A stretch of DNA of 42,547 bases from Desulfurococcaceae archaeon. Its GTDB lineage: Archaea > Thermoproteota > Thermoprotei_A > Sulfolobales > Desulfurococcaceae. The notes below the pieces were generated by a model. That model saw nothing but the letters and a program-made list of their open reading frames with translations. It ran no database searches and was not told the DNA's origin. Made by a program: the position numbers and the translations under genes. The stretch spans positions 1 to 42,547 of the forward strand of contig JAJHQQ010000005.1 of the NCBI GenBank assembly GCA_020833245.1. Direction: 5' to 3'. Of this stretch, positions 8,004 through 23,315 are shown one piece after another. Positions within the stretch are counted from its first letter, which is position 1. The number at the start of each line of letters is the position of its first letter.

Positions 8004-8696
8004 TTGGCTGAAGGCGACATGAAATCTCAAGAGAGAGGTCTTCGCAAGAGCAGCTATGAGGACTACTTAGCGACCATATACAGGCTGAGGGAAGTTTATG
8101 GTCAAGCCAAGCTACTAGACGTCTCTAGAGAGCTCGGAGTTAAGCCCTCAACAGCCTCTAAAATACTCTCACAGCTCGAGAAAAAAAGCCTCGTTAAGAG
8201 GTATATGTATAAGGAAGTAGTTCTAACTAGTAAAGGTATTGACTTAGCAATTAGGATTATAAGGAAACACAGAATTGCCGAGGCTTTTTTAGCCCATAAA
8301 CTCGGAATAGACGTTTTCGATACCCATTACTACGCACACTACTTGGAGCACTTACCAGACGAGCTAATAGAGAGAATATACGTGATTACCGGCTCTCCCA
8401 AGATCTGTCCACACGGAAACATTATTCCAATAGTAGAGAACAGGGAGGAATCGCTGAGTCTCGAGCAAACCCATTACACCAGGCTCAGTGAGGCGACTCC
8501 GGGATTATATAGAGTCGAGCGAATAGCGGGAGAGCTCTCAACGATTCTCCCCGTATTAAAAGAACTGCAGATTAAACCAGGAGTTATGATTGAAGTGGTA
8601 CAGCAAACACCTCTTTACACAGCAATAAGATATGATCAAGCCTTAAAAGAAGTAGTTAAACATGTAGCTTTTACGGTTTTTCTGAAACCAATGTAA
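8004..8696 (+). CDS. DtxR/MntR-family metal-dependent transcriptional regulator
   Basis: SYEDYLATIYRLREVYGQAKLLDVSRELGVKPSTASKILSQLEKKSLV (wHTH), ICPHGNIIP dimerisation region, C-terminal FeoA/SH3-like domain. Confidence 0.9.
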   Translation: MAEGDMKSQERGLRKSSYEDYLATIYRLREVYGQAKLLDVSRELGVKPSTASKILSQLEKKSLVKRYMYKEVVLTSKGIDLAIRIIRKHRIAEAFLAHKLGIDVFDTHYYAHYLEHLPDELIERIYVITGSPKICPHGNIIPIVENREESLSLEQTHYTRLSEATPGLYRVERIAGELSTILPVLKELQIKPGVMIEVVQQTPLYTAIRYDQALKEVVKHVAFTVFLKPM

Positions 8697-8713
8697 TTTC
8701 TGTACCCTCCTTG

Positions 8714-8741
8714 AATTTAGACTTATCTAAATTTATAAACC
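8714..8741 (+). promoter_or_regulatory. feoAB promoter: 20-bp palindrome AATTTAGA-CTTA-TCTAAATT overlapping TATA box ATTTATAAACC
   Basis: Perfect 8-bp arms read directly, immediately upstream of feoA and downstream of the dtxR-like gene. Confidence 0.7.
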
Positions 8742-8794
8742 CTTGCAGAGTACGCTCTAGTTGGAGACATAAATACGCATAGAAACGGCACTAC

Positions 8795-9055
8795 GTGGTG
8801 AACACTGTAGTGGGAGAAAACAAAATCACGACACTAGATAAGGTTAGCGAGGGAAAAGAGGTCACACTGATCTCTATAGAGGCGGGCAGAGGACTACTCT
8901 CCAGATTGCTTAATATGGGCCTCGTACCGGGCTCTAAGATCAGGGTTCTCGTTAACAAGGGAGGAGGTGTTCTCGTAATCAGTGTTCACGACACTGAGAT
9001 CTCTATTAGCCGTGGTATAGCGCAGAAACTGCTAGTTAGAGTGGAGTCACCATGA
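8795..9055 (+). CDS. feoA: FeoA family protein
   Basis: 86 aa; LISIEAGRGLLSRLLNMGLVPGSKIRVL. Confidence 0.88.
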   Translation: MVNTVVGENKITTLDKVSEGKEVTLISIEAGRGLLSRLLNMGLVPGSKIRVLVNKGGGVLVISVHDTEISISRGIAQKLLVRVESP

Positions 9056-11112
9056 AGAGAATTACAGTTGCACTAATAGGTCAGCCAAACGTTGGGAAGT
9101 CTACACTATTCAACGCACTCACAGGAGGTAACGCGATAGTCACAAATTGGCCAGGCACTACTGTGAGTAAGAGTGAAGGAGTTATTAGACATTGCCAATA
9201 CGAAATCCACATAATCGATCTTCCTGGTGTTTACGGCTTAACGGCTTTCACGATTGAAGAGAAAATATCCAGGAACTTTATTGTTAACGAGAAGCCCGAT
9301 GTAGTAGTTGTACTCGTAGACTCGCTCTCTCTAATTAGAACACTCTACTTAGCCCTCGATGTACTTGAGCTTATAGACCGTGTTGTTATTGGAGTAACTA
9401 AGGTAGACGAAGCTCACAGTAGGGGTGTTCACATAAATTACAACTTACTAGAAAAACAGCTGGGAGTGCCAGTGGTGCCCCTCTCGGCTGTAAGAGGTGA
9501 TGGTCTAAGAGAGCTCGCTGAGAGGATTATCAGTGTCTATGAGGCTGGTAGAAGGGAGCATACAAAAGTCGACTATGGCGAGTTGAGTACTTACATCGAG
9601 TCGGCAGAAGCCCTTATAAGACAATGTGACCTAGGGCTCTCGCATAGGTGGCTAGCGGTAAAGGTCTTTGAGGGAGATCCCGAGACGCTCGAATTGATCA
9701 AGTCGAGGTGTACGAGTCTGTATGAGGATCTCGTAGAGCTGAGAGAAGAGGCGTCAAGGATACTAAAAGTAGACCCAGCTGTTATTGTAGCTCGTAGTAG
9801 ATTTAAGCACGCTGAGAGTATTGGCAAGACCTGTGTGATTCAAGTAGCTGTTAGGAAAAAAGCTCCATCTAAGCTATTTTACCACCCTGTCTACGCACCG
9901 CTTATAAGCATAGCCATAATACTAGCTGTCTTTACACTAGCGTTCAATCTGAATACGGGTTTCCCCGTAGCGAGTATTCTTGAAAGTGTAGGCTTTAGTG
10001 AACTAGCAGAGGCAATTGAAAATTACACTATTAGTTCATTAATTGAGAGGTTCCTAGAGTGGAGTTCCAGTACTCTCAAAGGACTTCTCGGTGAGAACGC
10101 TATTTCGCTATTCCTGAGCGAAGCAGTATTAGGTGGTGTAGGGGCTTTATTACTATTTCTCCCACTAATAATGACCGTATTAGCTACTATAGGAGTACTC
10201 GAGGATACGGGTCTTTTAACGAGATTAGCAGTAGGTGTTCACACGCTATTTGAAAAACTAGGCTTCTCGGGTCACGCACTATTTCCACTATCGCTTTCAC
10301 TGGGGTGTAATGTCCCAGGTTTACTAGTAGCTAGGGCTATTCCAAGTACGGCTGAGAGGGTCCGGCTAATAATGCTACTACCATTTATACCGTGTCAAGC
10401 TAGACTAGTAGTCTTACTAGCCCTAGCTACGGCTGTGAGGCAGGGCTTTCTACTAGTGGTTCTCAGCTATATTGTAGCCTTTGCGGCATTCTTTGCTCTG
10501 GGGTTTGCTTTATATAAGTGGAGTACTATGAGAAGTGAAAGCGTGGAGATCAGGTTATTGCTGGAACAGCCTCCTCTACATAAGCCTATACCTAGAGTTG
10601 TGTGGTGGTACACGTGGTGGCACACAAAGCACTTCTTAGTAAAAGCGGGGACAATTATAGTTCTAGCTAACATTCTATTTTGGCTACTATCACACGTAGG
10701 TCCCTCAATGAGCTTTACGGATGATCCAGGCGAGAGCATTGCAGCATCGTTCTCAAAGACACTAACACCAATACTTAAACCAATAGGTATAAGCGGGGAG
10801 GGATCCTGGATCATAGCACTGGCACTAATCGCGGGCTTTATAGCTAAAGAGATCTTTATTAGCACTCTACTAACTGTAACCGGTGCGAGCAGTGTCAAAA
10901 ACGCTTTTACTACTATAGGTGTCTCTGAGCAGTCAGTTATAGCACTGACTATTTTCGTCACGCTCTATGTGCCCTGCTTAGCGGCTCTTTCGACGATCTA
11001 CAGTGAAACTAGGAGTTTAAAGCTCGTAGCCGAAGCAGTACTACTAATGCTAGTGGTTGCCTACACGTCGGCCATATTGGCATATACTCTAGCACTTGTC
11101 TTAACACTATGA
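9052..11112 (+). CDS. feoB: Ferrous iron transporter FeoB
   Basis: GQPNVGKSTLFNALTGG, NWPGTTV, DLPGVY, TKVDE G-domain plus transmembrane core; overlaps feoA by 4 nt. Confidence 0.95.
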   Translation: MKRITVALIGQPNVGKSTLFNALTGGNAIVTNWPGTTVSKSEGVIRHCQYEIHIIDLPGVYGLTAFTIEEKISRNFIVNEKPDVVVVLVDSLSLIRTLYLALDVLELIDRVVIGVTKVDEAHSRGVHINYNLLEKQLGVPVVPLSAVRGDGLRELAERIISVYEAGRREHTKVDYGELSTYIESAEALIRQCDLGLSHRWLAVKVFEGDPETLELIKSRCTSLYEDLVELREEASRILKVDPAVIVARSRFKHAESIGKTCVIQVAVRKKAPSKLFYHPVYAPLISIAIILAVFTLAFNLNTGFPVASILESVGFSELAEAIENYTISSLIERFLEWSSSTLKGLLGENAISLFLSEAVLGGVGALLLFLPLIMTVLATIGVLEDTGLLTRLAVGVHTLFEKLGFSGHALFPLSLSLGCNVPGLLVARAIPSTAERVRLIMLLPFIPCQARLVVLLALATAVRQGFLLVVLSYIVAFAAFFALGFALYKWSTMRSESVEIRLLLEQPPLHKPIPRVVWWYTWWHTKHFLVKAGTIIVLANILFWLLSHVGPSMSFTDDPGESIAASFSKTLTPILKPIGISGEGSWIIALALIAGFIAKEIFISTLLTVTGASSVKNAFTTIGVSEQSVIALTIFVTLYVPCLAALSTIYSETRSLKLVAEAVLLMLVVAYTSAILAYTLALVLTL

Positions 11113-12786: not shown

Positions 12787-14688
12787 CTACACTCTGCAAA
12801 TGTATATGTTCTCGGAGCCTGTAGCGTGTATTATGTAGTAATGTGGCTTAAGGGATCTTAGAGCCTCTGCTACGCAGGCAGCCTTTTCTCTAATAGCGCC
12901 TCCAATCACGTCTGTAGCTGCTTTTACGCTCTCGGGCTCGTTAAGCGTAAAGAACACTCTTAAACCAGCGTTATTGAGAAGTGCTTGAGGTATTCTCCTA
13001 ATATCCTGTGAAACCACTACTATTGAAAAACCAAATTTTCTGCTCTCCATGAACATTCTAGAGAGAAGCTCCATGCCCAGAGTCCTCGGCATTATGTGTC
13101 TAACCTCATCTATGACTAGTTGGAGAGGCATTCTCTTAGCGTGGTACATTTTACTTATCAACATGTACATTAAGGTCTCTACAAGTATTGCCTTTGTGAA
13201 ATCGCTTACAACTCTACTTAAATCAACTATACTACTGTCTTCTAGAAGCTCTTCAATGCTAAGGGGCTCTCCCTCGCCCATGCTCTCGCTAATTAAGTCT
13301 AAGTAAGGTTGAATTCTCGTAAACTCCTGGTTTACTTCACTCAGCTCTTTGCAGGCTGAGACGAGATCTCTAAGGGTAGGCGGATCCCTAGTCCACGTTT
13401 CAGGGTCATCTGTTATACCTCTCTCAGCGTATGCTTTTAGAATTACCTCTTCAAGAAGTCTCCTCTGTATAAATCCAAGCTTAAATATTGAGGCAATAAC
13501 GTGTGATAGCTGTAAAGCCCTATCTTTTGGCGAGGTCTTTTCGAGTACAAGGGGGTTAATAGTGTATTTAGACGCGTCGACTACTCTGCACTTAATGCTA
13601 GTACAAAGGTCTGAGTACTCGCCATGAGGGTCTACTACTAAGAAGCCGTAGCCGTAAGCTCTACTAAACTCTCGAATAATGTGTTTTACAAGTGTAGTTT
13701 TACCAGTACCCGACGCCCCCACGACTACTATGTGAGGAGTGTTCAGGTCTCCTAGTCTCACGTAAATAGGTTTACGTGCCTCTCTGAAAAACCAGGTCTC
13801 CCTAGTAGTAGAGCCGAGTATGTGTCCCTGTGAAACCTCAATATATACTCTGTGAGGCTCCCCATAGGCGATCTCGGCTTCTGCCAAGCCCATGAAGACC
13901 CCAGGTGGTTCACTGTAAAATACTCTTTCAACTCTCTGATAGTAGAGTTGTCCTCTTGAAGTAGCTACTAGCAGGGACGATATACCGAGTAATCCTGTTC
14001 CAGAGAAAAACCCAATTAATAACATCCTGCCGGCCTCCCTACTATGGGAGGCGTAGAGTGCTGAGAAGATTAATAGGAGTGGTTGCACACAGAGACTTAG
14101 TAGTAGTGCGTACGGGATTTCTTCAGTTTCCATGCCTCTAATAGCGAGTAGATAAGTAGTAAGTAGAATAAATACTGAGAAGCCAATACTGTGAGATGCT
14201 AGTAGAGTTGGAGCCACTTCTATGATATCTTTGAAACCTAGTCTTCTAGTCAAGGTGCTGAGAGGTGTCAGAGTACTCCTAGTCTTCTTAAAGTGCTCAT
14301 CGAGATAACCAGTCAATCCTAATAGCCGTGCAGCGAAAAGCGCTACTATGAGGCCAAAACACTCTCTACTTGCACTAAGTAGAGATAAATCTTCAAATCC
14401 GAGAAGTACTAGTTGTAAGTAGAGTATTAGTCTATTCAACATGCCGAGAATTATACTTGAAGTCAAAGCGGAAATTAACAGTACGTGTATAACTATGAGG
14501 ATCAGTAAGATTAGTGGCTTATAGAGAAACGCGTATAGATCCCTGAAGCTCTGAATACCTAGATTCACTAAGTAAGACCCACTCACATGTGTTGTTAAAG
14601 CGTAAAATATTAGGTTGACAACTAGTACGGCTATACTCCTACTAAACTTCTTTGAGACACTAATGAGTTGTGACATTTCTGCTAACAC
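12787..14688 (-). CDS. Membrane-anchored HerA/VirD4-like ATPase (DUF87-type)
   Basis: Multiple N-terminal TM segments, Walker A GASGTGKTT, DPHGEYSDL, Walker B LQLVIDEVRHIM, VVVSQDIRRIP. Confidence 0.85.
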   Translation of the reverse strand: MLAEMSQLISVSKKFSRSIAVLVVNLIFYALTTHVSGSYLVNLGIQSFRDLYAFLYKPLILLILIVIHVLLISALTSSIILGMLNRLILYLQLVLLGFEDLSLLSASRECFGLIVALFAARLLGLTGYLDEHFKKTRSTLTPLSTLTRRLGFKDIIEVAPTLLASHSIGFSVFILLTTYLLAIRGMETEEIPYALLLSLCVQPLLLIFSALYASHSREAGRMLLIGFFSGTGLLGISSLLVATSRGQLYYQRVERVFYSEPPGVFMGLAEAEIAYGEPHRVYIEVSQGHILGSTTRETWFFREARKPIYVRLGDLNTPHIVVVGASGTGKTTLVKHIIREFSRAYGYGFLVVDPHGEYSDLCTSIKCRVVDASKYTINPLVLEKTSPKDRALQLSHVIASIFKLGFIQRRLLEEVILKAYAERGITDDPETWTRDPPTLRDLVSACKELSEVNQEFTRIQPYLDLISESMGEGEPLSIEELLEDSSIVDLSRVVSDFTKAILVETLMYMLISKMYHAKRMPLQLVIDEVRHIMPRTLGMELLSRMFMESRKFGFSIVVVSQDIRRIPQALLNNAGLRVFFTLNEPESVKAATDVIGGAIREKAACVAEALRSLKPHYYIIHATGSENIYICRV

Positions 14689-14832: not shown

Positions 14833-17616
14833 ATGACTATGGGTGAAGTTTCTCGAATTGCAGAGTGTCTTAAGAAACTAGGATACGAGGAGTTAACGGA
14901 AATACAGCGTGAAAGCCTAAGGCACATTCTTAAAGGAGAGAATACTATAATTCTAGCTCCAACTGGCAGCGGCAAAACAGAGGCTGCTGTGTTTCCAGTT
15001 ATGCTTAAAATCTCTACTTTGAAGCTAGAGCCTATAGTCGCGATATACGTGACTCCTCTAAGGGCTTTAAATCGAGACTTAGAGCGGAGACTACAAGAGA
15101 TCGCGTTGTGTTTTAATCTACAAGTTGCTGTGAGACACGGCGACACTCCAGGTAGTTTAAGAAAACAGCTAGCTAAGAACCCCCCGCATATTTTGATTAC
15201 TACACCTGAGTCGTTTAATTACATAGTGCTAGATGAGTCTCTCAGAGAGAGGCTTAGAAACCTAGAGTTTATAGTTATTGACGAGTACCGGGAAGTTCTT
15301 GAGAGTAAACGTGGAGCTCTGTTACTTACGGTTATTAGTCTACTAGAGAACCTACTCCGCAAGAAAGTAGTTAAAGTAGCTTTGGCCGCTACTCTAAGCA
15401 ATATTGACTTAGCAGTTAAAATGCTGTCTCCGGAGGAAGATGTCGTAGTAGTCAAGGATCCTAGTCTAAAGGCCTTTAAAATAGAAGTAGTTGACCCTGT
15501 TGAGTGTACTAGTGAGGAGTGTAAACTAATCAGCGAGGAGACCAAAAACACACAGCTAGCTGCGAGAATTAGTACTATTCTAAGTATAGCTAGAAAACAC
15601 AAGCATATACTAGTCTTCACTAACACGAGGTCTCTCGCCGAGAGCCTCAACTACTTGTTGAGAAAGCTAAGCGGGATTCACAAACTCGAAGTTGATGTTC
15701 ACCATGGGAGCCTCTCAAGACAGCACAGAGAGAGCGTTGAGAGGGGGTTTAGAGATAGGAAAATAAACATACTAGTAGCGACATCAAGCCTAGAGCTCGG
15801 CATAGACATAGGTCACGTCAATCACGTAGTTCAGTACATGTCGCCTAGACAAGTAGTTAGACTAGTACAGCGTATTGGTAGGAGTAGGCATAGAATAGGC
15901 GACTTTAGTGAAGGCACTGTTATCGTAACAAGCAATGTACTCCACAAACTCGAGGTGGAGGCGCTAGTAGAGAGAGCTCTTAAAGGTGATATTGAAGAGG
16001 AGTATATACTCAACAAGCCGCTAGACGTTCTCGCTTACGCGGTTGCTTTATACGTCGCGGTTCACTCAGATGGAGTTGGCGTCGAGGACCTCTTTGAGAT
16101 AGTTAAGAGGACGCCTCTTTACGGTGATTTAACGCGCGAGGAGTACTTAAAAGTCATAGAGTACTTATCTTATACTCACGTGCTCAATCTTGTGAGTGGT
16201 GTTCTCAAGCCAACTAGGAAGACGAAGCTGTACCTGTACATTACTTCAATGATACCGTCAAGCAGGGAGGTTAACGTAATAGACATTACGAGTGACAGAA
16301 AAATTGGTACTCTAGATGAAGAGTACGTTGTAGTTAATATCTCACCGGGGGATAAGCTGATTCTCGCGGGTAGATCTTGGAGTGTTCTGAGTTACGATGA
16401 AAGAGACGCTAAGCTGTACGTAGAGCCGATAACCATACAGTTCTCTGAGGCCTTTATACCACACTGGGAGGGAGAAAACATACCGGTAGAGTACTCAGTT
16501 GCCACTATGGTTGGCGAGAAACTGAGGGCTCTCAAAAGCCAGTGCGCTGAAACTGACTATAGAGTTTCGAGCAGTTTACTAGATCAGGTTAGAGAACTAG
16601 GGGATGCTAGAAGTATTTATGTTGATTACGTCGAAGACATGAGAATAGTACTCATAAATGTATTTGGCGGTAGTCGAGTAAATAACGCGATTAGAGACAT
16701 CTTAAAGCACGTTCTGAAGTCAATGTACCCGCATGTTAGAGTAGAGACGCACTCTACACCATATGTTGTTGCTGTAAGATTTATTGATCCTGTAAGCCCG
16801 GTAATTGTAGAGCAAGTCTACAATGTAATTAGAGAGCTTTACAAATACACTACACCAGAGGTTATGCGGCGCGTCGCAACTAGTAGTAATACTGTACTCT
16901 GGAGGATTTACCAAGTAGGTCAGAGATTCGGGGCAATTTCACCGGGTGCACCGGTTAGCAGGAGGCTACTTGAGGCTTTCGTGGAAACGGTTATAGGTGA
17001 GGAGGCGCTGAAAGAGGTTTTAATAAGAGACTACGACATTAAGTCTTTGAGCAGACTCGCAGAGGAAATTTTAAACGGGTACATCAAAGTTGCTTTTAGG
17101 AAATATGGTACTCTTCAAAGTCACCACCTAGCTCTACTCGAATACGTTGAGACACCACTCACGAGGGAGTTGCCTCTACTAGATAAGTCCACTTATCTCA
17201 GTAAACTATTACGGAGAAGAGTCTTACTTGTTTGCATTAAATGTGGCTTCAGTATTGAGAGCTCTGTCAAGGAGATCATTGAGAATTTTAAAGAATACTC
17301 GTGTCTGAGGTGTGGGTATGCTACGCTAACACTAGTTAAAGGCGATGTAGATGTAGAGCTGGAAGTTCTCAGCAAGGCGAGAAGGGGTTTAAAAATAAGT
17401 GGAGAAGAGAGGAGGGTTTACGAGGATCTTGTGACGAGATCCACGTTATTGTACAAATTCGGAGATAAGGCTCTACTAGCTCTCGCTGCCAGGGGCGTGA
17501 GTACTAGTGAGGCGGCTAGAATACTCTCAAAAGTATTCACGGGGTCTGACATTATAGAAGAGATCTACGAGGCCGAGAAGAGATTTATCAGGGCAGGAGT
17601 ATTCAGAAGGAAGTAG
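14833..17616 (+). CDS. Lhr-type superfamily 2 helicase
   Basis: APTGSGKTEAAVFPV, TPLRALNRDL, TTPESFN, VIDEYREVLESKRG, TSSLELGIDIGHV, QRIGRSRHR; C-terminal zinc ribbon CIKCG...CLRCG. Confidence 0.88.
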   Translation: MTMGEVSRIAECLKKLGYEELTEIQRESLRHILKGENTIILAPTGSGKTEAAVFPVMLKISTLKLEPIVAIYVTPLRALNRDLERRLQEIALCFNLQVAVRHGDTPGSLRKQLAKNPPHILITTPESFNYIVLDESLRERLRNLEFIVIDEYREVLESKRGALLLTVISLLENLLRKKVVKVALAATLSNIDLAVKMLSPEEDVVVVKDPSLKAFKIEVVDPVECTSEECKLISEETKNTQLAARISTILSIARKHKHILVFTNTRSLAESLNYLLRKLSGIHKLEVDVHHGSLSRQHRESVERGFRDRKINILVATSSLELGIDIGHVNHVVQYMSPRQVVRLVQRIGRSRHRIGDFSEGTVIVTSNVLHKLEVEALVERALKGDIEEEYILNKPLDVLAYAVALYVAVHSDGVGVEDLFEIVKRTPLYGDLTREEYLKVIEYLSYTHVLNLVSGVLKPTRKTKLYLYITSMIPSSREVNVIDITSDRKIGTLDEEYVVVNISPGDKLILAGRSWSVLSYDERDAKLYVEPITIQFSEAFIPHWEGENIPVEYSVATMVGEKLRALKSQCAETDYRVSSSLLDQVRELGDARSIYVDYVEDMRIVLINVFGGSRVNNAIRDILKHVLKSMYPHVRVETHSTPYVVAVRFIDPVSPVIVEQVYNVIRELYKYTTPEVMRRVATSSNTVLWRIYQVGQRFGAISPGAPVSRRLLEAFVETVIGEEALKEVLIRDYDIKSLSRLAEEILNGYIKVAFRKYGTLQSHHLALLEYVETPLTRELPLLDKSTYLSKLLRRRVLLVCIKCGFSIESSVKEIIENFKEYSCLRCGYATLTLVKGDVDVELEVLSKARRGLKISGEERRVYEDLVTRSTLLYKFGDKALLALAARGVSTSEAARILSKVFTGSDIIEEIYEAEKRFIRAGVFRRK

Positions 17617-19554
17617 TCACGGGGTAAACTGGATCTTTCTTCTGCTCTTTCTCTTAAATGACTTGTAGTCTCCGAGAATAAGGGGTATTACGATTTTCTC
17701 CACGAGCTGGTCGCTCACCGGGCACACGTCGATGAAAATACGCGTGGACTTCTCGTCTAGTCGACTTAGCAGTCTCGGCCCCCCTGGCGTTAGCTTAACT
17801 GACCCACGTGGGGACCAGACTACACAGCTACCGCAAAATACACATGCTCGTAGTCTGTATACGCTCTTAATTACATCCACGACGTCTTCGAAATACCCAT
17901 TTTCAGGATATTGCGCTACTAGTATTCTGTCCCTTATAGTTATTTTTAAGCTCTCTTTTACTAACTCGACGCTGTTGCCTCGTGTAATAACACTGAAACC
18001 TGCTTTTTCAGCATTATTAGCGAAGAGGTCTTCGTGCCCGTCAGCCACGATCTTATCGTTGAACTCCACTGTAATACCTGATTCGCCCCTGCTAACTCTT
18101 ACAGGGTAAAAGCCGACCTTACTAGAAGCCAGTCTCTTCTCATACTCTTCCCGCCAGTTAACCTGGTGGTTCCCTAGCTGGGCTATAATTCTCTTCTTTG
18201 CTGTTGCAGGCGTAAGCCATCTCCACAGCCCCAGCTTACTCCACACTGGTGGTTGCTGTAGTCTCTCACGCCAAGATTCGAGTACGAGCCACCACTTAGA
18301 CCACAATTCAGGATATAGCCTCTCAATCTCCCTGTACTCAGCTAGCGCTGAGGACGGACACAAGTAGCATCCAAGCCTATTAAACCCCTCTTCGTAGAGC
18401 TTATTGAAAGGTAATCTATACTTGTAAATGTATAGCCAGCATGCTAGTTGACTCCAGTACTGGATTGGTGTAGTGCTGATCATGTGGGAGACCCACTTAT
18501 TACGCCACACTAGTGGACTACGTGCCCTGTCAAGGGACTCATACGCTCTCTGGCCAACGATATTAAGGGCTCCGCCGGGCCACATGGCTCGAGTTAACTT
18601 AGCTATAGGGGTTAACTTAGCTACTTTACAACACCACCTGTAGTCTTTTCCTGGTGGCCCGAAGACCTCTACTGCTCTCCAGAAAATATCTCCCGCAGAA
18701 GCAAAGTATACTTTGAAGTTGTAGTAGCGCGCTATTTCCTCAATGTTCTTTAAAGTCTCCGGCAATTCTAGTCCAGTGTCATTAAACACTATTTCAACTT
18801 CTCCGAACACTCTGCGAGCTAAGTCTAGAGCGACGAGGCTGTCTTTACCGCCTGAGCATGAAACTACTGGTTTTAAATTAAATCTCCTGCTCAATCTCTG
18901 GAGAAATCCTATTGACTTTTCTTCTAGGCTGTTTAAGCCCTCAGTGTTACGGGAGAGAACGAGGTCTATATTAGCTGTTTTCTCACTAGTCTCAATTGGT
19001 AAGACTCTCTCGTAGAAAGTCTTAGTGATAACTATGTTGTCTCCTCTCGCTTCTCCGACAGCGCGGATGTTTCCGCGCTGATCTAGCACTACTACTTGTC
19101 TAGCTGAGCCAGCGTATTTACCTGTAATTACCCGGTCTACATAGAATGGGGGAGTACTCACAATGGTCTCGACGTAGCCTAGTTGAACAGCTAAGTAGGC
19201 TCCTTGATACGTTAGTCTAAATCTCCACTTTTCTCTAAACGGATCATAGTATAGTTGGCCAATTACGTTTCCGGATACTACGACCTCGTACATTAAGTCC
19301 CAGTGAGGCACTTTATTAAGCAGTATAAACTTACCACTAATGTACTTATCGTATAGCTTGAGGTCTCCGAACTCGTACTTTAACGCTTCTTTAAGCCTCT
19401 CTAAGTCGCCTTTAAAAGCTGGTTGAGCATCACACGGCTCAGTAAGCTTTAAAGCGTAGAATAGGTCTATTTCTTCTTGTTTCGGCCTAATAACCGGTAT
19501 GTTTAACCAGGTATCCCAGTATATCTTGACGACTCTAGGCCACAGTCTTCTCAC
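17617..19554 (-). CDS. PAPS reductase-like PP-loop protein with N-terminal PUA-like domain and C-terminal Cys-rich region
   Basis: VVSCSGGKDSLVALDLA, FNDTGLELPET, WCCKVAKLTP, CYLCPSS, CVFCGSCVVWSP; GSARQVVVLDQRGNIRAVGEAR PUA-like. Confidence 0.75.
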   Translation of the reverse strand: MRRLWPRVVKIYWDTWLNIPVIRPKQEEIDLFYALKLTEPCDAQPAFKGDLERLKEALKYEFGDLKLYDKYISGKFILLNKVPHWDLMYEVVVSGNVIGQLYYDPFREKWRFRLTYQGAYLAVQLGYVETIVSTPPFYVDRVITGKYAGSARQVVVLDQRGNIRAVGEARGDNIVITKTFYERVLPIETSEKTANIDLVLSRNTEGLNSLEEKSIGFLQRLSRRFNLKPVVSCSGGKDSLVALDLARRVFGEVEIVFNDTGLELPETLKNIEEIARYYNFKVYFASAGDIFWRAVEVFGPPGKDYRWCCKVAKLTPIAKLTRAMWPGGALNIVGQRAYESLDRARSPLVWRNKWVSHMISTTPIQYWSQLACWLYIYKYRLPFNKLYEEGFNRLGCYLCPSSALAEYREIERLYPELWSKWWLVLESWRERLQQPPVWSKLGLWRWLTPATAKKRIIAQLGNHQVNWREEYEKRLASSKVGFYPVRVSRGESGITVEFNDKIVADGHEDLFANNAEKAGFSVITRGNSVELVKESLKITIRDRILVAQYPENGYFEDVVDVIKSVYRLRACVFCGSCVVWSPRGSVKLTPGGPRLLSRLDEKSTRIFIDVCPVSDQLVEKIVIPLILGDYKSFKRKSRRKIQFTP

Positions 19555-19644: not shown

Positions 19645-19911
19645 GTGGCCGACTTAGTTGAGTTCATTAAGGGGTTAATTACGCTAATTGTAGTAGTAGC
19701 GTGGTTTGTGTTTCTACTAGCTTGGATTATTGGGTGGCTTATTAGAGGCTTACCAATACCGTTTCTTAGAGTCAAGAAGTTGGGTAATAAGTTCATAGAA
19801 GACGCTGTGTGGGCGGCTTTCTGGCTGGCTATGGGTACAACGGTCTTCGCGATTATAGCTTATGTAACGTCATCTCTACAACTCCCAATGCCTCAGCCCC
19901 CAATTCCATGA
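19645..19911 (+). CDS. cedA1: CedA1-like 2-TM pilin subunit (TrbC/VirB2-like)
   Basis: 88 aa, two hydrophobic helices joined by a short basic loop RGLPIPFLRVKKLGNKF; adjacent to CedA- and CedB-like genes. Confidence 0.65.
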   Translation: MADLVEFIKGLITLIVVVAWFVFLLAWIIGWLIRGLPIPFLRVKKLGNKFIEDAVWAAFWLAMGTTVFAIIAYVTSSLQLPMPQPPIP

Positions 19912-19956
19912 TTACTTATACTTAAATATCCCCAAGTTTATGGCGAGTGAGGCTCT

Positions 19957-21321
19957 ATGGATCTTCTCTCTACTGCTTTCTACTTGTCTGTACTCTCCTA
20001 TTGTCTCGGGGCACTACTTCGAGCTCTACCTCTACCATTTTTCTCGTTGAAAAAGCTCGGTAAGACTCTAATGGTTGACAGTGTCTTCTCAGCCACACTA
20101 GTATTTTCTTACCAGACTCTCCTATCGATCATTGACTACCTAGGAAGCGTGCTGAACACAGACTGGACAAGTTTCTCAGCGTGGGTTTCTGAGAGATCTA
20201 CAATACTCTTACTACTACTAACCGCGTTTAAGGCTATTGGAGTTTTAGTGGCCAAAATCGGCTTAGGCGCGGTGTTCTCCGGCATACTCTCGTCTATTAC
20301 GAGTTTAATTACGACTTCACTAACAACACTTCTCTCAGTCTGGATATTGTCCCTAATGATAAGAGCGGCCTCCGGTTTTCTCATGGCTATTGGAATACTC
20401 CTCATTTCAATACCATTTAGACTCGCAAGGGGGGCCGGGGCCGCGATTATAGCTGTAACCGTGGTCTTCTCTATAGGCATGCCTTTAATGCCTCACTTTA
20501 TTTCAATTGTCTCAAGTGGAACAGTGGTTAGCATTGGCCTCAGTGAGCCTTTGTGCTCAGGTACTTTACAGTTAGTGGATGCTCGAGGAAACCCGGTGGG
20601 GCAGGCTGTTATTGAAGGGTATAGGGGGAGAGATCTCCTTTACAGGTATGTTTTTAACAACAATGGATTACTAGTAGTCGGCAAAACTACCGGCGGCCTT
20701 CCCTGTGGTGAGCACGTAGCTAAGATCGAGATAGCCGGATTTAAATACAGCTATATTGTACCAGCTCGTGGACCAGCAGATTTCTCGAATATTACTTTTC
20801 AGCTTCCAGACATCCTGGTGTTAGATACTAGAAGGCTTTTTGAAGTTGGAAGAGGAGTTCAAGTAGTCAACTACTCTAAGTCTGAGAGTGGAGTAGTCCT
20901 TCAGCTAGAATCGAGTGGAGACTCGTACTTTGCAGTTTATACAGAAGCATCCGATACCCTAGTAGTGACTATTAATGGCGTAGAAGTTAGAGAGTCCACT
21001 GTAATTAAGTATACTTGGCATAATATTAACTACACTGGCTTTAAGTACAATCTCGCTCCGGGCACTTATCTGGTTAATGTAACTGTGTATATTCAGTCCA
21101 CAACGCCGCTAGACGTGCCAGTAGAGCCATTCGTGATTAAGGCTTTTAACCTGGACCCTCTCGCCCCCGAGACTGTGTTCGCGTACTTAACGTACCTGTT
21201 TGTAGAGCTGACTATTCTGCCGCTTATTTACGTAGCCATCTTAATGACGATCTCCTACGGGGTTGCCCGCTTACTCGGGGGAGTCTCAGTTAACATTGCG
21301 AGATACATGGTGATGGTGTAA
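19957..21321 (+). CDS. cedA: CedA-like polytopic membrane protein with large extracytoplasmic domain
   Basis: 454 aa; N-terminal RALPLPFFSLKKLG module like CedA1, several TM segments to about residue 185, soluble beta-rich region, C-terminal TM. Confidence 0.65.
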   Translation: MDLLSTAFYLSVLSYCLGALLRALPLPFFSLKKLGKTLMVDSVFSATLVFSYQTLLSIIDYLGSVLNTDWTSFSAWVSERSTILLLLLTAFKAIGVLVAKIGLGAVFSGILSSITSLITTSLTTLLSVWILSLMIRAASGFLMAIGILLISIPFRLARGAGAAIIAVTVVFSIGMPLMPHFISIVSSGTVVSIGLSEPLCSGTLQLVDARGNPVGQAVIEGYRGRDLLYRYVFNNNGLLVVGKTTGGLPCGEHVAKIEIAGFKYSYIVPARGPADFSNITFQLPDILVLDTRRLFEVGRGVQVVNYSKSESGVVLQLESSGDSYFAVYTEASDTLVVTINGVEVRESTVIKYTWHNINYTGFKYNLAPGTYLVNVTVYIQSTTPLDVPVEPFVIKAFNLDPLAPETVFAYLTYLFVELTILPLIYVAILMTISYGVARLLGGVSVNIARYMVMV

Positions 21322-21492
21322 TTGAAAAAGCCCACACTTATTCTCATTGTATTAACTATTCTCTATGGATTTCAAATGGTATTGTTAACTTCGAGTATAG
21401 TACACCTACTAGTTCCTACAGCGCTCTCAGTGCTCTTAGTACTAGTAATGAGAGTGGTGAAGAGGAGTGAAACTAGTCAAAAAGGCTCTTGA
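21322..21492 (+). CDS. Small 2-TM membrane peptide, candidate CedA2 (below ORF-track length cutoff)
   Basis: TTG start directly after the cedA stop: MKKPTLILIVLTILYGFQMVLLTSSIVHLLVPTALSVLLVLVMRVVKRSETSQKGS*; overlaps the cedB start by 26 nt. Confidence 0.55.
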   Translation: MKKPTLILIVLTILYGFQMVLLTSSIVHLLVPTALSVLLVLVMRVVKRSETSQKGS

Positions 21493-23098
21493 CTTCCTAC
21501 AGGATTTTCTACCACGAGACTTTAAACTCTCACTTGAACCCCCAGACGTAGTAGTCCAGTACTCTGGGAGAGTAGTAATTAAGCGTGTTTTAGTTTGTAG
21601 AGATGTAGATTACTCGCTCGACGACTTATCTGAGGCTTCAGCGAGAACTCTCTTAGAGGCTTATACTGCACTGCTTCAATCGCTGCCCGAGGGCGTTCAC
21701 ATACACATATTTAAAGAGGAGTTTAACATAGAGGGCTACATGAAGAGGCTTGTAAATGATATTTTAAATACGCAGGTGGATCTTGAAAGTACACGCGACG
21801 AGGTGCGTAGAGTTAAACTCGAGGCTAAGTTGCACAAGCTTAAAAGCATATATGAGGCTCTCGTAAAGGGAAAGCCATTTATTAGGTCTACGCTGGTAGT
21901 AGCGTTTTCTGTTAGCGATTCGAGTCTAAGTAGAGCTAAGAGCCTCGCAGACTACTATGAGGCTCTTATCACTGACTTGTTTCAGAAAAACCTTAATTTT
22001 CAGCTTAGTAGAGCTACTCGCAACGAGATAGCCAAGTATATACTTGAATTTCTCGGTTTAAGTAAACACTCACATAGTAGCCCAGTTATCCTAGAGGCTA
22101 GCAAGCTCTCTGCTTTTCAGCCCCTAGTCTTAGACAAGTTCACGCCTATTAGCGGAGTAGTTGTCATCGGGTTTTCCAAGGACACCTTACACCCCATTGG
22201 GCTGAGACCGGAGGACTTCTACTATCACTTAGCCGTAATCGGCCCGACTGGGAGGGGTAAAACGACTCTACTTGCAGGAATAATTGAGCAAGTACTAGCC
22301 GACTCGAATACGAGGGTTTTTGCTGTTGACTTTAAAGGCGACTTAGAAAGCTATTTACAGCCAGGCATCGTGGAGGTAGCTAAGCCCGAGGACATGCCTC
22401 TAAACTTCTTGAAGACTCCTCCGGGAGTTAGCTCTATTGACTGGAGGGGTGTCGTCTTAGACGCGCTCTCCCACGTGACTAGTCTACCCCCCGACAAGGT
22501 CTCGAGGGCGCTAAGCTCGCTGGAGAGGTCTAGTAGTCTCGAGTACGCTTTGAAATCTCAAGTAGCATCACTTCTTATTCACTTCCTCGAATTTGTAGGG
22601 GGAGAAGTAGACTACACGAGGCTTCAAGACGTATATAGAAGGGGGGTTGTTGTCAGTTTAAAGAGTAGAGGAGTAGTGTTTCAGAACACGTATGCATCGC
22701 TCTTCATAGGACTACTCCGCTACGTCTTGCTAAGAGAGAGTAGTGATCACGGCGCGCTACTCGTACTCGACGATGCGTGGAGAGTTCTAAAATCGAGGTT
22801 TATTGTTGAACTAGTTCGAGAGGGTAGAAGTAGAAAAGTCGGAGTTGTGATCTCGACGCAGACGCCCGAGGACATGCCAGTTGAGATTCTCGAAAACGTA
22901 AATCACTACGTGGTTTTCGGCTCGAGGAATAGAGATTACATTGATAAAATAAGGAGAATTTTAGGCCTTAAAGAGGAGCACGCAAACGCTCTATTTAAAC
23001 TAAGCGTGGGTGAAGCAGTATACGCAAACACCATTACGAGGAGAACCGAGATCATCACCACTGCTAAACCCTACAAGTTAGCTAAGTCTCCGAGCTAG
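21467..23098 (+). CDS. cedB: CedB-like HerA/VirB4-type ATPase
   Basis: Walker A GPTGRGKTTLLAG, VFAVDFKGDLESYL, Walker B ALLVLDDAWRVL, VVISTQTPEDMP. Confidence 0.75.
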   Translation: MKLVKKALDFLQDFLPRDFKLSLEPPDVVVQYSGRVVIKRVLVCRDVDYSLDDLSEASARTLLEAYTALLQSLPEGVHIHIFKEEFNIEGYMKRLVNDILNTQVDLESTRDEVRRVKLEAKLHKLKSIYEALVKGKPFIRSTLVVAFSVSDSSLSRAKSLADYYEALITDLFQKNLNFQLSRATRNEIAKYILEFLGLSKHSHSSPVILEASKLSAFQPLVLDKFTPISGVVVIGFSKDTLHPIGLRPEDFYYHLAVIGPTGRGKTTLLAGIIEQVLADSNTRVFAVDFKGDLESYLQPGIVEVAKPEDMPLNFLKTPPGVSSIDWRGVVLDALSHVTSLPPDKVSRALSSLERSSSLEYALKSQVASLLIHFLEFVGGEVDYTRLQDVYRRGVVVSLKSRGVVFQNTYASLFIGLLRYVLLRESSDHGALLVLDDAWRVLKSRFIVELVREGRSRKVGVVISTQTPEDMPVEILENVNHYVVFGSRNRDYIDKIRRILGLKEEHANALFKLSVGEAVYANTITRRTEIITTAKPYKLAKSPS

Positions 23099-23210
23099 GA
23101 GAAAAGGGAGCAGCTTCGAGGCATTTGTAGTAATATAGATTTAATAAGTGTAATTCTCATTAAGAAGCCTGGGAAGTGAAACGGCGTGAGTGCTTATAGT
23201 GGTGAACTTT

Positions 23211-23315
23211 ATGGGCGGTAGACAGAAGACTACTTTATTTATTATTAAGGAGAGAGCTCAAAAGGGAGGACAGCCCAGTAAGGAGGAAAAGAAGCCACGT
23301 AAAGAGGGCAAATAG
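23211..23315 (+). CDS. Tiny basic protein, possible orphan eS25 N-terminal-tail-like ORF
   Basis: MGGRQKTTLFIIKERAQKGGQPSKEEKKPRKEGK*; alternative in-frame GTG start 9 nt upstream. Confidence 0.35.
   Translation: MGGRQKTTLFIIKERAQKGGQPSKEEKKPRKEGK

Follow-up and report, generated by a model that had tools for sequence, protein, structure and literature searches.

A Compact Ced-Type Gene Cluster with a Probable CedA2 in a Desulfurococcaceae Archaeon

Among the closest described relatives of the locus examined here is the Ced system of Sulfolobales, which consists of the four originally defined components CedA, CedA1, CedA2, and CedB, plus CedD and CedE; CedD was reportedly described in 2025. 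The Ted system of Thermoproteales (TedA, TedB, and TedC) is likewise a domesticated set of pilin, VirB6-like, and VirB4-like proteins, of which TedC, a substrate of signal peptidase, displays no recognisable sequence similarity to CedA1 (PMC9905601). Ced has been shown to make pili in Desulfurococcales, the CedA1 pilus of Aeropyrum pernix having already been solved (PMC9905601), and is therefore not new in this group. CedA2 has been described as not conserved between species (PMC9905601) and as absent from A. pernix (PMC11868833). The latter study also states that VirB3 is absent from archaea and leaves open which motor powers DNA export from the donor.

Gene order and chromosomal setting

The window is the whole stretch of DNA that was analysed, 42,547 nucleotides from a Desulfurococcaceae archaeon (JAJHQQ010000005.1); it corresponds to contig 22 in a draft assembly that comprises 862,650 bases in 78 contigs and is ~78% complete. 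An earlier note, made from the letters and their open reading frames, had identified four consecutive plus-strand genes encoding a pilin-like protein, a polytopic membrane protein, a small two-TM peptide, and a HerA/VirB4-like ATPase, and had assigned the set to Ced with all components in one cluster. The four ORFs were confirmed at these coordinates (Table 1), and a purine-rich, Shine-Dalgarno-like stretch lies directly 5′ of each of the four starts. The TTG codon of the third gene abuts the stop codon of the second, while its 3′ end overlaps the fourth by 26 nt.

Table 1. Coordinates of the cluster genes, the CedA ectodomain, and the linked ATPase gene in the window
Feature	Positions	Strand	Product	Description
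cedA1	19645..19911	+	88 aa, GTG start	two-helix conjugative-type pilin
cedA	19957..21321	+	454 aa, ATG start	polytopic VirB6/CedA-type channel protein
CedA ectodomain coding part	20551..21090	+	residues about 199-378	predicted beta-sandwich (Ig/transthyretin-like)
cedA2 (probable)	21322..21492	+	56 aa, TTG start	two-TM peptide
cedB	21467..23098	+	543 aa, GTG start	FtsK/HerA-superfamily DNA-translocating ATPase, VirB4-like
candidate Ced partner	12787..14688	-		polytopic membrane FtsK/HerA-superfamily ATPase, DUF87/TraG P-loop

Relatives retrieved through the pilin carry the annotations Desulfurococcaceae, Desulfurococcales, Thermosphaera, and Staphylothermus. The genome search grouped genomes into anonymous families f1-f11, with f1 being the family of the window, f9 being Sulfolobaceae, and f3 including A. 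pernix. Many related genomes share a recurring order: membrane HerA-like ATPase, Lhr-type helicase, PAPS-reductase-like protein, CedA1, CedA, small ORF, ATPase, RNA methyltransferase, and ribosomal protein L3. Recurrence of the same order with the same neighbours in so many relatives shows that the cluster is not a chance arrangement. The locus is chromosomal, common to relatives, and occupies a fixed place beside ribosomal protein genes.

Three of the surrounding genes were recorded individually. The PAPS-reductase-domain protein (17617-19554, minus strand) is divergent from cedA1 and stays its neighbour in many Desulfurococcaceae. The Lhr-type DEAD-box helicase (14833-17616) adjoins the membrane ATPase gene, and does so in Sulfolobaceae too, there at a greater distance from the ced genes. 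A basic ORF of 41 aa (23190-23315) lies between cedB and the RNA methyltransferase gene and is perhaps a small ribosomal protein.

Identities of CedA1, CedA, CedB, and CedD

Comparison of the 88-aa protein with the NCBIfam model Ced_CedA1 (NF041797) gave 111.2 bits against a curated equivalog cut-off of 100, and the pilus chain 8dfu_B of A. pernix was matched with an E value of 4e-24. By these sequence matches the first gene is CedA1, in agreement with its earlier pilin-like reading. CedA1 exceeds the same NCBIfam cut-off in 170 of the 214 genomes of the order and is present in 172 of them; in a sample of the phylum it is hardly present outside the order. In one Sulfolobaceae genome, an in-frame TAG breaks the CedA1 match (G200:C1:117749-117974).

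The 454-aa protein matches NCBIfam Ced_CedA (NF041796) with an E value of 4e-40 and 138 bits, below the cut-off of 330; the model spans 259 positions and does not include a long ectodomain. At the N-terminus it shows homology to CedA1 (hhalign 96%, E 1e-9), which has been reported as a trait of CedA (PMC9905601). Thus both membrane proteins, for which a lack of CedA or CedA1 similarity had been named as grounds for abandoning the Ced reading, display that similarity, and the second gene is CedA, its product bearing an extensive beta ectodomain. In the AlphaFold2 model (pLDDT 85.8), helices at residues 2-192 and 404-441 flank a beta region at 199-378, which is predicted to form, probably, two domains. 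A Foldseek search with the model matched the ectodomain alone, and weakly, to the pilin BcpA, to transthyretin-like and Ig-like sandwiches, and to SlaB; VirB6 was absent among the 50 matches listed. Comparisons with single R388 sequences, the CedA profile with VirB6 and the CedA1 profile with VirB2, gave no signal, an outcome that says little with one sequence on the bacterial side. CedA measures 252-329 aa in Sulfolobaceae (f9) loci versus about 447-532 aa in other families of the order, and the beta ectodomain is missing from Sulfolobaceae CedA. A. pernix is without Ups aggregation pili (PMC9905601). From this one phylogenetic contrast, we speculate that the ectodomain might replace Ups in partner contact where Ups is absent.

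The ATPase was placed by phylogeny. In a tree of 78 ATPase cores, the protein from the window, 23 locus-mates, and 13 CedB proteins (Sulfolobaceae and f2) form one clade with SH-aLRT support of 99; CedD and HerA fall outside it, as do the membrane HerA-type proteins. Since it shares this clade with CedB sequences, the ATPase is CedB and does not fall into an unrelated HerA clade, the outcome that the earlier note had named as contrary to its proposal. Iterated HMMs for the two ATPases had merged into each other, and the tree was used instead. Walker motifs are present, and the motifs GPTGRGKTT and DDAW are conserved. The protein scores 68.5 bits to the NCBIfam CedB model, far under the cut-off of 700, and across the genome set CedB exceeds that cut-off in 26 of 122 genomes, though CedA1 is far wider. 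Ced_CedA and CedB models exceed their cut-offs solely in Sulfolobaceae-type proteins; these cut-offs delimit a Sulfolobaceae-type subfamily, not the Ced system. Sulfolobaceae CedB opens with a TM hairpin, whereas CedB in the window has no TM segment. At three loci of families f2 and f6 (L211, L208, and L209), CedB consists of a separate N-terminal-domain ORF and an ATPase ORF.

The earlier claim that all components sit in one cluster holds for the four originally defined components; CedD lies on another contig and is split into two ORFs. Its ATPase part (G000, contig 6, 8384-9364; match at 8351-9361) scores 230 bits, below the cut-off of 600, and falls in the CedD clade of the tree, while its N-terminal domain is carried by a separate 108-aa ORF, a split common to several relatives. 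Just 5′ of the split CedD gene (L142, 7446-7796) is a 116-aa ORF whose relatives in several families likewise lie near CedD, possibly a further partner. Contig 19 contains a HerA-like gene followed by an apparent NurA gene, labelled by eye.

The small CedA2 gene and the linked membrane ATPase

The 56-aa protein itself has no match to the NCBIfam Ced_CedA2 HMM (NF041798), and Pfam and PHROGs leave the small genes without a useful name. In 50 of 69 loci, part of which are redundant, a hydrophobic ORF of 40-70 aa begins at the stop codon of CedA, versus 0 of 510 other ORFs of at least 250 aa. The Sulfolobaceae ORF in this place scored 74.6 bits to Ced_CedA2 at one locus (L137; cut-off 80), and two further Sulfolobaceae counterparts gave E values of 5e-7 and 2e-5. 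Profile-profile comparison (hhalign) of the Desulfurococcaceae small-ORF set with the Sulfolobaceae CedA2 set yielded 74% with an E value of 3e-5 over 43 columns, rising to 87% with all non-Sulfolobaceae sequences, whereas seven TM hairpins used as controls, drawn from the membrane ATPase, CedA, and CedA1, reached at most 1.1%. On their own, the f7 and f8 sets matched weakly, up to 7%, and codon comparison of close pairs, with few substitutions, adds little. From position and profile match, CedA2 is the most probable identity of the 56-aa gene. Given the recurrent ORF at the CedA stop and the profile match to Sulfolobaceae, CedA2 probably extends well beyond that family into several families of the order.

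Some lineages manage without it: f3 and f4 have no CedA2 beside CedA. The A. pernix locus (G012/L113, with a pilin that matches the compared 73-residue stretch at every position) has no CedA2 ORF after cedA, so that for this species the published descriptions are right; CedB there opens with a TM helix. That CedA2 or a CedB TM helix occurs in each lineage without exception was rejected as a rule, given that two loci (L058 and L059) apparently have neither; a tendency remains.

In divergent bacterial systems, VirB3 is marked by a size of 10-15 kDa, two TM helices, and a gene beside virB4, overlapping it in pCF10 (PMC12857230). CedA2 shares the two TM helices and the location directly 5′ of the virB4-like cedB; at 56 aa, or about 6 kDa, it falls short of that size range (PMC12857230). 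The arrangement cedA-cedA2-cedB with its overlap is that of prgH(B6)-prgI(B3)-prgJ(B4) in pCF10 (PMC12857230). Membership in the VirB3 family was rejected: a scan of the genome with Pfam PF05101 finds nothing at the locus, and hhalign gives 1% against five VirB3 sequences. Because of this result and its smaller size, the comparison is limited to function, and that CedA2 works like VirB3 is conceivable by analogy, if somewhat doubtful. Separately, VirB3 matches on an IncX4 plasmid (L219) and in Campylobacter fall inside VirB4-annotated genes and represent VirB3-VirB4 fusions.

Upstream of the cluster, the candidate partner gene encodes a polytopic N-terminal region followed by an FtsK/HerA ATPase domain, for which no curated family name was found. 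The family is conserved in the order and forms its own clade (SH-aLRT 93 for 18 of 19 rows in the 78-core tree). Among the 44 genomes that carry this gene and cedA1 on one contig, the two lie within 25 kb in 29, including all 20 outside Sulfolobaceae and 9 of the 24 within. By hand count, CedA1 occurs in 55 of the 57 genomes with a strong copy of the ATPase (Fisher p 0.006 for co-occurrence, a value that ignores relatedness). Family f3, including A. pernix, has CedA1 and no clear copy. The best Foldseek matches are DndH-C, VirB4, and HerA; the N-terminal half of the AF2 model is unreliable. Among FtsK/HerA ATPases the VirD4 coupling protein is not its nearest match, with hhalign giving 99% for both CedD and HerA versus 78% for TrwB. 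The protein may be a Ced-associated motor or may merely share an old neighbourhood; in the former case it is a candidate for the donor-export motor. As a tentative extension, somewhat doubtful as a whole, CedA2 might be the VirB3 equivalent that docks CedB to CedA, making Ced a minimal four-part B2-B6-B3-B4 machine, with the linked polytopic HerA-type ATPase as an undescribed Ced-associated motor, possibly an export ATPase.

Assignment, alternatives, and known systems

The CedA1 score above cut-off, the CedA match, the CedB clade, the position and profile match of CedA2, and CedD and a HerA-like gene elsewhere in the genome together support the original assignment, which we uphold: the cluster is very probably Ced, a type IV secretion machine that has been domesticated and would import DNA from neighbouring cells. 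Experiments on relatives also back this reading (PMC9905601, PMC11868833). Counting against it are the CedA and CedB scores, both well short of their equivalog cut-offs, the missing HMM match of the 56-aa protein to Ced_CedA2, and the lineages with no CedA2 beside CedA. Gene identities, gene order, conservation, and ATPase clade are direct observations; the likely roles are taken from genetic work in Sulfolobus and from the solved pilus of A. pernix. CedA1, exported uncleaved, would build, together with lipid, a hollow pilus of the conjugation type, at the base of which CedA would form the membrane channel, with its beta-sandwich head extracellular. CedB would act as a hexameric ATPase of the VirB4/HerA type, held at the membrane, as gene order suggests, by CedA2 as its adaptor. 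CedB and CedD would then draw single-stranded DNA inward from the partner cell for recombinational repair.

It is generally appreciated that pilin, VirB6-like, and VirB4-like genes form the core of conjugation machines (PMC12857230), and the cluster might accordingly be viewed as the conjugative system, of the usual VirB4 type, by which an integrated mobile element exports the DNA of that element. This is highly improbable. The neighbours are constant in many genera beside ribosomal L3, and such conserved synteny largely refutes a mobile element; no relaxase or integrase gene was noticed among the flanking genes read; the ATPase belongs to the CedB clade; and CedA and CedB have zero matches in 72,556 plasmids, which, together with the fixed chromosomal place, is as expected for a domesticated system. 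An unlikely reading, though less remote, is that the pilus is of Ced type and serves mainly another use than DNA import, such as adhesion or DNA export as a donor. The large adhesin-like ectodomain of CedA would suit such a use, and tests of transport direction are not known from outside Sulfolobaceae. Deletion of CedA1 in Saccharolobus lowers export too; against this, CedB and CedD, both of which Saccharolobus needs for import only, are both present here (PMC11868833).

The remaining alternative concerns the small gene alone. The TM hairpin that opens Sulfolobaceae CedB is missing from CedB here, and the peptide gene overlaps the cedB start, so the peptide could be that hairpin in detached form instead of CedA2. 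We regard this as fairly unlikely, because the profile match to the CedB hairpin is 3%, far below that to CedA2, and Sulfolobaceae carry the hairpin plus a separate CedA2. The contiguous and compact operon could be moved or expressed as a single unit.

Set against Ced of Sulfolobales, the window shares the four original components, the CedA1-CedA-CedA2 order, and a genomic CedD. It differs in that cedB is joined to the cluster and lacks the hairpin, CedA is about 200 aa longer with its beta ectodomain, and CedD is distributed over two ORFs. The A. pernix locus (PDB 8dfu; G012, L113) displays a chromosomal CedA1-CedA-CedB run as in the window but differs in having no CedA2 between CedA and CedB and an initial TM helix on CedB. 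Sequence similarity of CedA2 to VirB3 and of CedA to a single VirB6 went undetected, and neither VirB7-VirB11 genes nor a relaxase gene were noticed in the flanks, whereas roles and order resemble those of the bacterial VirB2-VirB6-VirB3-VirB4 core, as in R388 Trw and pCF10 Prg. The probable wider occurrence of CedA2 brings Ced, in one respect, closer to bacterial type IV secretion. Within the Ced family the cluster is ordinary, though well formed; what it adds is the wider reach of a probable CedA2 in the VirB3 position, the CedA ectodomain, and the linked membrane ATPase.
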